From: a bacterium | GTDB taxonomy: Bacteria > Hydrothermota > Hydrothermia > UBA1063 | NCBI GenBank assembly: GCA_030019025.1 | Contig: JASEFR010000013.1 | Coordinates: 1-51,131, forward strand | Direction: 5' to 3' | Length of the DNA: 51,131 nt | Shown: positions 42,573 to 49,194 of the stretch, in pieces | Layout: the number at the start of each line of letters is the position of its first letter | How positions within the stretch are numbered: position 1 is the first letter of the stretch | The notes under the pieces: generated by a model | What the model was told of the DNA's origin: nothing | The model's input: the letters and a program-made list of their open reading frames with translations, nothing else | The model's database searches: none | Translations under genes and position numbers: made by a program

Positions 42573-42607
42573 TATAAAAAATGAGGGGCCCCGTGGGGCC
42601 CCCAATG
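42573..42607 (-). terminator. Intrinsic terminator of the transhydrogenase-gdhA operon
   Basis: Read on the minus strand: GGGGCCCC and GGGGCCCC arms around a 2-3 base loop, followed by TTTTTT (complement of 42576-42581). Lies 23 bases past the gdhA stop. Confidence 0.9.
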
Positions 42608-42629
42608 AGTTGTTTTAATTCGGGATTTA

Positions 42630-43988
42630 TCACAGAGCGCCATAAGCAAGCATGGCCTTGGCAACTTTGATAAATCCGGCGATGTTGGCACCAGTCAGAT
42701 AATCACCTGGCCTGCCGTAGGCTTCAGCGGCATCAAGGCAGCTCTTGTGGATTCTCTTCATGATTTCTTGAAGCTTAGCGTCAACTTCTTCCCTCGTCCA
42801 CTGAAGCCTTATGCTGTTCTGAGTCATTTCGAGACCCGATGTAGCCACGCCGCCTGCATTGGCAGCTTTTGCTGGACCATAGAGGATTCCATGCTCCTGG
42901 AAAACCTTAATTGCCTCAAGAGTAGAGGGCATGTTAGCACCTTCAGCAACTGCAATCACACCATTCTTTACGAGGGCAACTGCATGATCTTCATAAATTT
43001 CATTTTGAGTTGCACATGGAAGAGCAATGTCAACCTTAATGCCTTCATCTCTTATAACATCCCACACAGACTTCTTATCGTAGTACTTGGCTTTTGGATA
43101 TTTTTCAGCGTATTCTCTAATTCTTCCTCTTTTCACATTCTTGAGCTCCTTTACAAAGGCAAGTTTGTCGGCGTCAATTCCTTCCATGTCCACAATTGTA
43201 CCGTCGGAGTCTGATAGGGTAATTACTTTTCCACCGAATTGGGTTACTCTTTCACAGGCATGCTGGGCAACATTACCAGAACCGCTAATGGCTACGATCT
43301 TTCCTTTGAGATCCATACCTTTAGTTGCAAGCATTTCTAAGGTGAAGTAGGTTAAGCCGTAACCTGTAGCTTCAGGCCTGATTAAGCTTCCACCATATTC
43401 AAGCCCTTTACCCGTTAAAACACCGGTATGCTCGTTCATAATCTTTTTGTAGAACCCGTACATGTATCCAATCTCTCTTGCACCCACACCGATGTCACCA
43501 GCTGGAACGTCTGTATCAGGTCCAATGTGTCTGAAAAGCTCGCTCATAAAGGCATAGCAGAATCTCATTACTTCAGCGTCAGATTTGCCCTTGGGATCGA
43601 AGTCGGAACCACCCTTTCCACCACCCATTGGCAGAGTGGTAAGAGCGTTTTTGAAAATCTGCTCAAAGCCAAGGAATTTGATTATACCGAGGTTAACTGA
43701 GGGATGAAACCTCAAGCCGCCCTTGTATGGACCAATAGCATTGTTGAACTGTACTCTGAAACCTCTATTTACATGGATATTGTGGTTGTCATCTTCCCAT
43801 ACTACACGGAACTGAATTATTCTATCAGGTTCAACGATTCTTTCGAATATCTTCGCTTTTACAAATTCAGGGTGCTTCTCTTCCACTGGTCTCAGAGTAG
43901 AGAGCACTTCTGTCACAGCCTGTATAAATTCAGGCTGATCTTTATCCTTCTCCCTAATTTTTGCTATGACATCATCTATTTGGGACAT
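42630..43988 (-). CDS. gdhA: Glutamate dehydrogenase
   Basis: Interconverts glutamate and 2-oxoglutarate plus ammonia with NAD(P)H. 452 residues, the hexameric class I length. N-terminal substrate-binding part: [32 protein letters not shown], and the catalytic-Lys stretch [16 protein letters not shown]-terminal Rossmann fold: [13 protein letters not shown] and [11 protein letters not shown]. The SDSDG loop after the second strand favours NADP in many class I enzymes, but I do not claim the cofactor. Good ribosome site (AAGGAGG). Only 17 bases separate it from the NuoG/GltD fusion gene upstream, and a terminator follows, so it is the last gene of a four-gene operon with an NADPH/NADH/ferredoxin-type complex. 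Confidence 0.95.
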
Positions 43989-46930: not shown

Positions 46931-48737
46931 TTCTAACTCCCTGAAATGCATCAACTATTTCTATGGCATCAAATCTGCAAACTTCATAACATGTTCCACA
47001 TTTGATACAAATGTCTTGATTAATAAAGTGAGGCTTTCTTACCTCACCAGTAATCGCCTTTGCCGGGCAATACCTTGCGCACGCTGTACAACCATTACAT
47101 TTATCAGTGATAATCACATAAGCAATTAGTGGTTTACATACTTTGGCACGGCATTTTTTGTCAACAACATGCTCTATATATTCCTGTTTAAAATATTTCA
47201 GTGTGGTCAGTACTGGGTTAGGTGCAGTCTGACCAAGTCCACAAAGTGAACCGGCTTTAACTTCATATGCAAGTTTCTCCAGATCTTCAATTTCATCCAA
47301 GGTTCCTTCGCCCTTTGAAATCCTGTCGAGTATTTCCCACATTCTCTTTGTTCCCAACCTGCAGAATGTGCACTTCCCGCAGGACTCTTTTACAGTGAAA
47401 TCGAGGAAAAATTTAGCAACATCTACCATACAGGTATCAGAATCCATTACAACCATTCCACCCGATCCCATAATTGCACCGGTCTTACTGATTGATTCGT
47501 AGTCTACAGGAATATCGAGCATTTCCTCTGGTATACAGCCGCCCGATGGTCCCCCAAGCTGAACTGCTTTGATCGGTTTTCCTGTTTTGGTTCCCCCACC
47601 TACCTTAATAAGTATGTCCCTCAAAGGGAGTCCCATGGGAACTTCTACGTTACCACCTCTGGCTATTTTCCCTGCCAATGCGAAAACCTTAGTACCCTTA
47701 CTTTTCTCAGTCCCTATGGATGCGAAGGCTTCCCATCCATGCCTTATTATCCAAGGAACGTTAGCCCACGTTTCCACGTTATTAATATTGGTTGGTTTTC
47801 CAAAAAGCCCCTTCTGAGCTGGGAAAGGAGGCCTTGGCCTTGGCATTCCACGTTTACCTTCAATTGATCCAATTAGGGCCGTTTCTTCTCCACAAACGAA
47901 TGCACCAGCACCTTCCTTTATTTTTATATCAAAAGAAAAATTACTCCCAAGTATATTCTGCCCAAGGAATCCTCTCTCTCGTGCTTGAGCCAAGGCGATT
48001 TTAAGGCGCTTGATGGCGAGAGGGTACTCGGCACGAACATAAATATAACCTTCACTGGCGCCTATCGCATAAGCTCCAATTGTCATCCCTTCAATAACTC
48101 TGTGAGGGTCTCCTTCAAGCACATTCCTGTCCATGAAAGCCCCAGGATCACCTTCATCGGCGTTACATACTACGTATTTTTTATCTCCCGGTGCTTCTCT
48201 CGTAAATTTCCACTTTAGCCCTGTGGGAAATCCTGCACCACCACGCCCTCTAAGACCGGACTTTTCTACAATCTCAATTATCTCTTCTGGTTTGTGCTTC
48301 AAAGCAATTCTTAATGCTTCATAGCCATCTCTTGCTATATATTCGTCAATGTTTTCAGGGTCTATATACCCTGAATTTTCAAGAACGATTTTCTTTTGCA
48401 TTGCGAAGAAGCCGTCGACGTCCCAGGTTTCAATAACTTTCGTTCCCCTTATCTTATCGGTCTTAACCACCCACTCGTGAATTGGAACGTTATTTATGAT
48501 ATGAGATTCCACAAGTTTTTTTACTTTATCCTGAGTTAAATTACCATACGTGATGATGGAATCTTCGTATATTATATCAACGAGTGGTTCTCTATAACAC
48601 ATTCCAACACACCCAGTAACTTTGAGGGGAATGTCGATATTCTTTTCTTTAAGGAGTCTCTCCAGGGCATTATAAGTTTCTCTCGCCCCTGCAGCAATAC
48701 CACATGAATTCATTCCAACGGCAATTGCCTTAATCAT
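46917..48737 (-). CDS. NuoF/HydB-type subunit (FMN, NADH-binding, Fe-S)
   Basis: 606 residues. N-terminal ~85 residues: thioredoxin-like 2Fe-2S domain (AVGMNSCGIAAGA...VTGCVGMCYREP). Core NuoF: GRGGAGFPTGLKWKFTREAP (FMN/NADH), CNADEGDPGAFMDR, a SLBB part, and the [4Fe-4S] cluster ESCGKCTFCRLG with GSLCGLGQ. C-terminal two-cluster ferredoxin CNGCTACARYCPAKAI and CIKCGTCYEVC. This N- and C-terminally extended NuoF is the one found in bifurcating hydrogenases, formate dehydrogenases and Stn-type transhydrogenases; it should hold the NADH/FMN bifurcation-associated site. Overlaps the NuoE gene by 8 bases; ribosome site GGAGAG. Confidence 0.93.
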   Translation of the reverse strand: MIKAIAVGMNSCGIAAGARETYNALERLLKEKNIDIPLKVTGCVGMCYREPLVDIIYEDSIITYGNLTQDKVKKLVESHIINNVPIHEWVVKTDKIRGTKVIETWDVDGFFAMQKKIVLENSGYIDPENIDEYIARDGYEALRIALKHKPEEIIEIVEKSGLRGRGGAGFPTGLKWKFTREAPGDKKYVVCNADEGDPGAFMDRNVLEGDPHRVIEGMTIGAYAIGASEGYIYVRAEYPLAIKRLKIALAQARERGFLGQNILGSNFSFDIKIKEGAGAFVCGEETALIGSIEGKRGMPRPRPPFPAQKGLFGKPTNINNVETWANVPWIIRHGWEAFASIGTEKSKGTKVFALAGKIARGGNVEVPMGLPLRDILIKVGGGTKTGKPIKAVQLGGPSGGCIPEEMLDIPVDYESISKTGAIMGSGGMVVMDSDTCMVDVAKFFLDFTVKESCGKCTFCRLGTKRMWEILDRISKGEGTLDEIEDLEKLAYEVKAGSLCGLGQTAPNPVLTTLKYFKQEYIEHVVDKKCRAKVCKPLIAYVIITDKCNGCTACARYCPAKAITGEVRKPHFINQDICIKCGTCYEVCRFDAIEIVDAFQGVRNEQN

Positions 48738-49194
48738 CGAGCTCTCCTTTCTTTAATTTCCTCATTAATTTTCTTACTGCTTCTCCTGTTAGTTTACCAT
48801 ATACTTTGTCATTAATCATGATAACTGGTGCAAGACTACAACATCCTAAGCATGCTACTCTTTCAATAGTAATTAGACCATCGGAAGTTGTTTGTCCCTC
48901 ATCAATTCCTGTTTCTTCGCGAAGAGCTTGTGCAATGGTTTCCGCTCCATTTACGTGACAGGCAGTTCCATGGCAAACTTTAATGACATATTTACCAAGA
49001 GGTTCAAAACGGAATTGAGCATAAAAGGTAGCGACTCCTAATACCCTTGTCAAGGGAATATCAAGATATTTTGAAATCTCCTCCAGGACATCTTTGGGTA
49101 AATATCCGAAGATTTCCTGTGTCTTCTGGAGAAGAGGTATTAATGAGCTTGTGCTTTTTTCATAGGTTTTAATAAAATTCAACTTATCCTCCAT
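48730..49194 (-). CDS. NuoE-type [2Fe-2S] subunit
   Basis: 154 residues of the 24 kDa NADH dehydrogenase subunit family: a helical N-terminus (LLQKTQEIFGYLPKDVLEEI), ATFYAQFRFEPLGKYVIKVC with CHGTACH, and VACLGCC, the four Cys of the [2Fe-2S] cluster, in a C-x4-C ... C-x3-C pattern. First gene of the complex operon; AGGAGAG ribosome site. The small subunit of HydABC/StnABC-type complexes. Confidence 0.93.
   Translation of the reverse strand: MEDKLNFIKTYEKSTSSLIPLLQKTQEIFGYLPKDVLEEISKYLDIPLTRVLGVATFYAQFRFEPLGKYVIKVCHGTACHVNGAETIAQALREETGIDEGQTTSDGLITIERVACLGCCSLAPVIMINDKVYGKLTGEAVRKLMRKLKKGELDD

Follow-up and report, generated by a model that had tools for sequence, protein, structure and literature searches.

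The present analysis concerns an apparent four-gene operon on the minus strand of a 51,131-nucleotide stretch of contig JASEFR010000013.1 (called here the window over its full length) from a WOR-3 bacterium (genome G000). The first gene encodes a NuoE-like protein with one [2Fe-2S] cluster (StnA or BfuC subunit; 48730..49194, 154 aa, PF01257 at 1.6e-53), the second a NuoF-like protein (StnB or BfuB; 46917..48737, 606 aa), the third a NuoG/GltD fusion predicted to bind NADP(H) and flavin adenine dinucleotide (FAD) (StnC or BfuA; 44006..46930, 974 aa) and the fourth, gdhA, an NADP-type glutamate dehydrogenase (GDH; 42630..43988, 452 aa). The nuoE and nuoF genes overlap by 8 bases (48730-48737), and nuoF and the fusion gene overlap by 14 bases (46917-46930) when the ATG at 46930 is taken as the start of the fusion; a mechanical list of open reading frames (ORFs) begins the gene further upstream, with the TTG at 46954. 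Between the fusion gene and gdhA lie 17 bases (43989..44005), which contain the AAGGAGG ribosome-binding site of gdhA. These gene coordinates, overlaps and gap had been given in a first-pass annotation of the window and were reproduced to the base by the ORF check.

A sigma-70-like promoter, TTGACT-N17-TATAAT, with 11 of 12 consensus matches is predicted at 49303..49331 (minus strand), about 108 bases upstream of nuoE, and the operon is closed by a predicted intrinsic terminator at 42584..42603 (minus strand), whose 8-pair stem has 7 G-C pairs and is followed by the T tract CATTTTTTAT, in keeping with the terminator proposed earlier after gdhA. The promoter-like matches in the region are not more numerous than in shuffled sequences, and the promoter and terminator are regarded as credible because they are conserved across the sister genomes, which is support and not proof. 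The genus set comprises four genomes, namely G000, G001, G002 and G003; the promoter hexamers and their spacing are identical upstream of nuoE in G003 (L044 6230-6258) and G002 (L045 5512-5540), and a terminator-like stem, differing in sequence, is found at the equivalent place 3′ of gdhA in all four. The stem after gdhA in the window has the most G-C pairs among the terminator-like stems of the region. The motif scan of the 17-base gap gave no promoter- or terminator-like site, the kind of site that according to the first-pass annotation would separate gdhA from the other genes; the counterpart gaps in G003, G002 and G001 are also short (17–24 bases) and carry AGGAGG, and a strong ribosome site precedes gdhA in each genome of the genus. 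A search of Rfam around the operon found no RNA element. The genes nuoE, nuoF, fusion and gdhA apparently form one transcription unit, and the NIF3 gene lying past the terminator probably belongs to a separate one.

The NuoE-like protein is classified by Pfam and NCBIfam as 2Fe-2S thioredoxin-like, and its ligand cysteines C74, C79, C115 and C119 are invariant in a four-sequence alignment. The NuoF-like protein has 2Fe-2S-type cysteines at its N terminus and, by the same databases, the domains Complex1_51K (flavin mononucleotide (FMN) and NAD(H) site), SLBB, NADH_4Fe-4S and a C-terminal 2x[4Fe-4S] ferredoxin domain, the Fer4 pair of which lies at about residues 541-595; it aligns with PDB chain 9n5u_B over residues 2-598 at 1098 bits. 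The parts of a Bfu core were found in the two proteins, that is, the FMN domain and the iron-sulfur (Fe-S) sites with the C-terminal 2x[4Fe-4S] in NuoF and the [2Fe-2S] in NuoE, and the cysteines of the bifurcating core are complete in both. The genome has three NuoF-type copies, and this C-terminal domain is found only in that of the window; both copies next to an [FeFe]-hydrogenase stop before it, and the fourth PF01512 match is RnfC. These two copies without the C-terminal 2x[4Fe-4S] lie in a hydrogenase cluster on contig C2 (L056 5642-11184), whose [FeFe]-hydrogenase is of the NADH-dependent group A6. This hydrogenase may be non-bifurcating, so that the window operon would be the genome's only complete Bfu-type core.

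The fusion subunit consists of Fer2_4 (N-terminal 2Fe-2S), Fer4_20, Pyr_redox_2 (the GltD-type NADP/FAD domain), an Nqo3-like Fer4 and a short molybdopterin-Fe4S4 remnant. It matches NfnA of PDB 9n5u_A from end to end (residues 1-962, 1300 bits), a chain of 963 aa which we take, from its length and description, to be from Thermococcales, and it matches Stn 8oh5_C at 602 bits; 8oh5 and NfnABC 9bov were aligned over most of the length, and the fusion is about 60% identical to a solved chain. K170 at cluster C7 in StnC of Sporomusa ovata has been reported as invariant among Stn enzymes, with glutamate at this position in NfnB (PMC10482914). The equivalent residue of the fusion is K165, and in our alignment lysine is found in 18 of 18 StnC-type sequences (that of the window and 17 others) and glutamate in all three NfnB sequences; R234 corresponds to Stn R239, and a YRR motif is present at residues 347-349. 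The operon contains the three-gene Stn/Nfn-Bfu set of NuoE-like, NuoF-like and NuoG/GltD fusion genes, and NfnA (the subunit of dihydroorotate dehydrogenase B (DHODB) type which NfnAB enzymes have) was not found in the window genome, nor in G002 and G003, at E <= 1e-30. The assignment of the window enzyme to a known and solved family, the Stn / Nfn-Bfu (NfnABC) transhydrogenases, is supported, with its activity predicted from homology; the Stn type proposed in the first-pass annotation agrees with the full-length 9n5u match, the 8oh5 match and the diagnostic lysine.

It was also considered whether the complex serves as NADH module to a formate dehydrogenase or hydrogenase encoded, as to its catalytic subunit, at another place in the genome. 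In favour of this, PF04879 (a molybdopterin-type Fe4S4 motif) is retained in the fusion, and NuoE and NuoF make up a pair of the HydBC type. The best full-length match is NfnA/StnC and not FdhA or HydA, the formate dehydrogenase-like domain survives in Stn as a remnant that is no longer active (PMC10482914) and is shorter in the window fusion, and the [FeFe]-hydrogenase of the genome has NuoE/NuoF genes of its own on contig C2. No H-cluster or molybdopterin catalytic domain is present in the operon, just as the first-pass annotation had said, and since the best matches are transhydrogenases, such a module was rejected as most improbable.

The fusion is without the cysteines of one cluster, called A4 in the Bfu naming and C2 in the Stn naming, where the S. 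ovata counterpart reads ISCGQCVDVC. The same cysteines are lost in Thermococcales, in one Thermoplasmatota and in one Heimdallarchaeota sequence and are retained in the remaining rows of the alignment. The Nfn-Bfu of Thermococcus sibiricus, which has been shown to bifurcate, is also without the A4 cluster (PMC9304861), and therefore this cluster is not required for membership in the Stn/Nfn-Bfu family. The nearest relatives of the fusion are from Thermococcales (60–63% identity), and in the trees of both the fusion and NuoF the WOR-3 genus and the Thermococcales, Thermoplasmatota and Heimdallarchaeota sequences form a group of eight with strong support, apart from the other sequences of its own phylum; the operon has therefore probably been exchanged between archaea and this genus, in either direction.

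This kinship brings in another possibility, that the complex passes electrons from NADPH to sulfur (or oxygen) in the manner of Nso of Thermococcus litoralis, and that gdhA would regenerate its NADPH. StnC has Nso among its nearest homologues, and an activity as NADPH-dependent sulfur oxidoreductase has been ascribed to Nso (PMC10482914, PMC7483475); the loss of the A4/C2 cluster is common to the window fusion and the Thermococcales sequences. Against this, Nso may itself be a transhydrogenase according to Kremp et al. (PMC7483475), a complete NAD(H)/FMN subunit with a ferredoxin domain would be superfluous, and NfnAB occupies the equivalent slot in G001; an Nso-like function is accordingly considered improbable.

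The gdhA gene is the sole ELFV_dehydrog match in the window genome. Its product scores 748 bits against NF006929 (cut-off 536), the family of the NADP-specific E. coli GdhA type, and it has conserved the NADP-type counterparts of D263, S264 and K286 of the E. coli enzyme, residues which we presume to set the coenzyme choice of GDH. A search for glutamate synthase in this genome, which is 98.9% complete, gave no credible match; one partial candidate of 20.8 bits was discarded, its ORF reading by eye as IMP dehydrogenase. The genome also encodes five POR-type ferredoxin (2-oxoacid) oxidoreductases, Rnf and the NADH-linked [FeFe]-hydrogenase. On contig C31 (L057 8925-16558) the Rnf cluster adjoins an apparent indolepyruvate ferredoxin oxidoreductase pair, a hint of aromatic amino-acid fermentation.

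The order nuoE-nuoF-fusion-gdhA-NIF3 is found in three of the four genus genomes (G000, G003 and G002), which have the promoter and terminator positions in common as well, and the fusion is 83% identical to the window protein in G003 and 67% in G002; the arrangement is thus not unique to one genome, which had been named beforehand as a weakness if true. In G001 the slot of the operon, between a DUF6754 gene and gdhA-NIF3-permeases, is occupied by NfnA and NfnB, an identity backed by matches to NfnAB of Thermotoga maritima and Pyrococcus furiosus. The flanks of the slot are common on both sides to G001, G000 and G003, and G002 shares the flank on the gdhA side only. The three-subunit fusion was not found in G001, and both systems occur together in none of the four genomes. 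That Stn and Nfn exclude each other was noted earlier for acetogens (PMC7483475) and for Thermococcaceae (PMC9304861); the literature searched contained no report of one taking the other's place at a single locus in front of gdhA. The operon link to gdhA and this exchange look new, and the first-pass annotation, too, knew of no description of the exact arrangement; transhydrogenase-gdh adjacency in general is not unique, as nfnAB-gdh pairs exist in other families of the phylum. The gdhA of G002 (L045 10827-12164) is only 72% identical to those of the other three genus members, which share 93–96% among themselves, and its flanking genes show no comparable drop. Replacement of gdhA in place was considered for G002 and is not claimed, because a single clade for the genus is compatible with the approximately unbiased (AU) test (p 0.17).

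The subunit set, the cofactor ligands, the layout as a single unit, the pairing throughout the genus and the substitution by NfnAB in the sister genome can be read from the sequence itself. On this basis we consider it likely that the enzyme is of the Stn/Nfn-Bfu type and is functionally paired with the NADP-type gdhA. By analogy with homologues, NADP(H) would exchange hydride at the FAD of the fusion subunit, and electrons would pass through the Fe-S clusters of the fusion to the FMN of the NuoF-like subunit. Bifurcation would occur at the FMN/Fe-S core, where NAD(H) would react and ferredoxin (Fd) would be served by the C-terminal ferredoxin domain of NuoF, the predicted net reaction being 2 NADPH + NAD+ + 2 Fd(ox) <-> 2 NADP+ + NADH + 2 Fd(red) + H+. 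In the closest group of characterised relatives, that of the T. sibiricus Nfn-Bfu, NAD+ has to be added before ferredoxin is reduced by NADPH (PMC9304861). The gdhA product would draw on the NADP(H) pool common to the transhydrogenase. As the genome has one GDH, of the E. coli-like NADP type, and no detectable glutamate synthase, the likelier net flow would be from NADH and reduced ferredoxin to NADPH and on to the fixation of ammonium by GDH; we lean slightly towards this anabolic direction, and the pair could reverse during amino-acid fermentation.

The opposite direction may also be proposed for the fermentation of peptides or amino acids: gdhA would turn glutamate into 2-oxoglutarate with NADP+ as acceptor, and the NADPH so formed would be re-oxidised by the transhydrogenase, giving NADH and reduced ferredoxin for the hydrogenase and Rnf. 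The nearest relatives are those of Thermococcales, and T. sibiricus ferments peptides and its enzyme was assayed in the NADPH-oxidising direction (PMC9304861). The five POR-type oxidoreductases of the window genome, with the indolepyruvate type adjoining Rnf, and the NADH-linked [FeFe]-hydrogenase would fit such a route. On the other side, a cell without glutamate synthase would need gdhA to assimilate ammonium. NADP-linked GDHs of E. coli type are usually biosynthetic, and NADP+ is in vivo a poorer acceptor than NAD+ for the oxidation of glutamate. The catabolic direction is given an appreciable chance, below that of the anabolic one.

The gene-neighbourhood survey proposed with the first-pass annotation was run over 110 relatives. 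In ten genomes of seven families (G001, G041, G063, G082, G094, G104, G062, G051, G077 and G091) gdh and nfnA are no more than 2.5 kb apart, whereas a simple estimate that uses gene number and genome size puts the expectation at about 0.35 genomes; seven families is the safer count, because the Poisson figure ignores kinship. Both gene orders occur among the pairs, one pair is convergent, and both GDH subfamilies are represented. Outside the phylum, nfnAB (Clo1313_1848-1849) and the NADPH-linked gdh (Clo1313_1847) of Clostridium thermocellum bear consecutive locus tags (PMC9888227), which suggests adjacency there too. It may be argued that the adjacency to gdhA has no function and goes back to a single ancestral rearrangement inherited within the genus, whose members share ancestry. 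This appears unlikely, as G001 keeps the adjacency with NfnAB, nfnAB-gdh proximity recurs in six other families in both orders and with both GDH subfamilies, and the C. thermocellum tags are consecutive.

Some points do weigh against a functional pairing of anabolic direction. The three-subunit type directly beside gdhA is confined to one genus, at 1 of 48 loci (UBA1063), in a scan of genome contigs that includes some short loci and reaches only the sequences matching two peptide patterns. Deletion of nfnAB in C. thermocellum left amino-acid secretion unchanged (PMC9888227). The genomes are draft assemblies, and the five POR-type enzymes, including the indolepyruvate type beside Rnf, also fit amino-acid fermentation.

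In the related nfnAB loci some further features were observed. A stand-alone 86-aa protein with an Lrp/AsnC ligand-binding domain is encoded between nfnB and gdhA in G104 (L111 5819-6079) and directly after nfnB in G041 and G063 (L107 3116-3376; L108 3397-3657), and it might sense amino acids for the transhydrogenase-GDH module. In G094 (L110 1173-5471) an ORF of 702 aa lies between gdh and nfnA, and nfnA is split between two reading frames, unlike in its family mate G082.

The apparent operon of transhydrogenase and gdhA, taken with the presence of another enzyme of like predicted function at that locus in a sister species, points to a coupling of ammonia metabolism with redox balance in these bacteria. 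Two enzymes with different proposed bifurcation mechanisms stand at one locus before one gdhA, which makes a natural experiment, and the occurrence of both in one slot argues that their job in vivo is identical and concerns glutamate. As a tentative extension, a transhydrogenase (Bfu or NfnAB) with a GDH of either subfamily might be a selected, exchangeable module which hands the NADPH from bifurcation to GDH, possibly in a physical complex; if true, the pools of ferredoxin and NADH would be linked directly to the assimilation of ammonium. It would be predicted that GDH ranks, in the WOR-3 phylum, among the chief consumers or suppliers of the NADPH on which Nfn-type enzymes act.

Among the known systems, the C. 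thermocellum locus resembles that of the window in having a transhydrogenase and an NADP-GDH with consecutive locus tags, but its enzyme is of the NfnAB type and glutamate synthase (GOGAT) genes are also present; the passages of PMC9888227 consulted do not comment on the adjacency. StnABC of S. ovata (PMC7483475, PMC10482914; 8oh5) and NfnABC of Caldicellulosiruptor saccharolyticus (9bov/9bp5) have, as in the window, NuoE, NuoF and NuoG/GltD subunits, the K170 equivalent and the NADP(H) domain, whereas their fusions are about 200 residues longer with one additional cluster, and the stn genes of S. ovata lie downstream of Wood-Ljungdahl genes. The Nfn-Bfu/NfnABC of Thermococcales (T. sibiricus, PMC9304861; PDB 9n5u) shares with the window enzyme the three subunits, the full-length alignment of the fusion, the A4/C2 loss and the tree group of eight; the Thermococcales loci examined, whose fusions are 60–63% identical, have no adjoining gdhA, and three of them (L059, L067 and L079) have upstream an apparent cytosolic NAD(P)H hydrogenase cluster, divergent from the homologous operon, and thus a further enzyme of pyridine nucleotides beside it. 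NfnAB (T. maritima 4ylf, P. furiosus 5jca; the type found in G001) has in common with the window enzyme the net reaction and the slot between DUF6754 and gdhA-NIF3, but it consists of two subunits, only its GltD-like domain is homologous to the window complex, and its bifurcating site is an FAD (PMC9304861) and not the FMN/Fe-S core.

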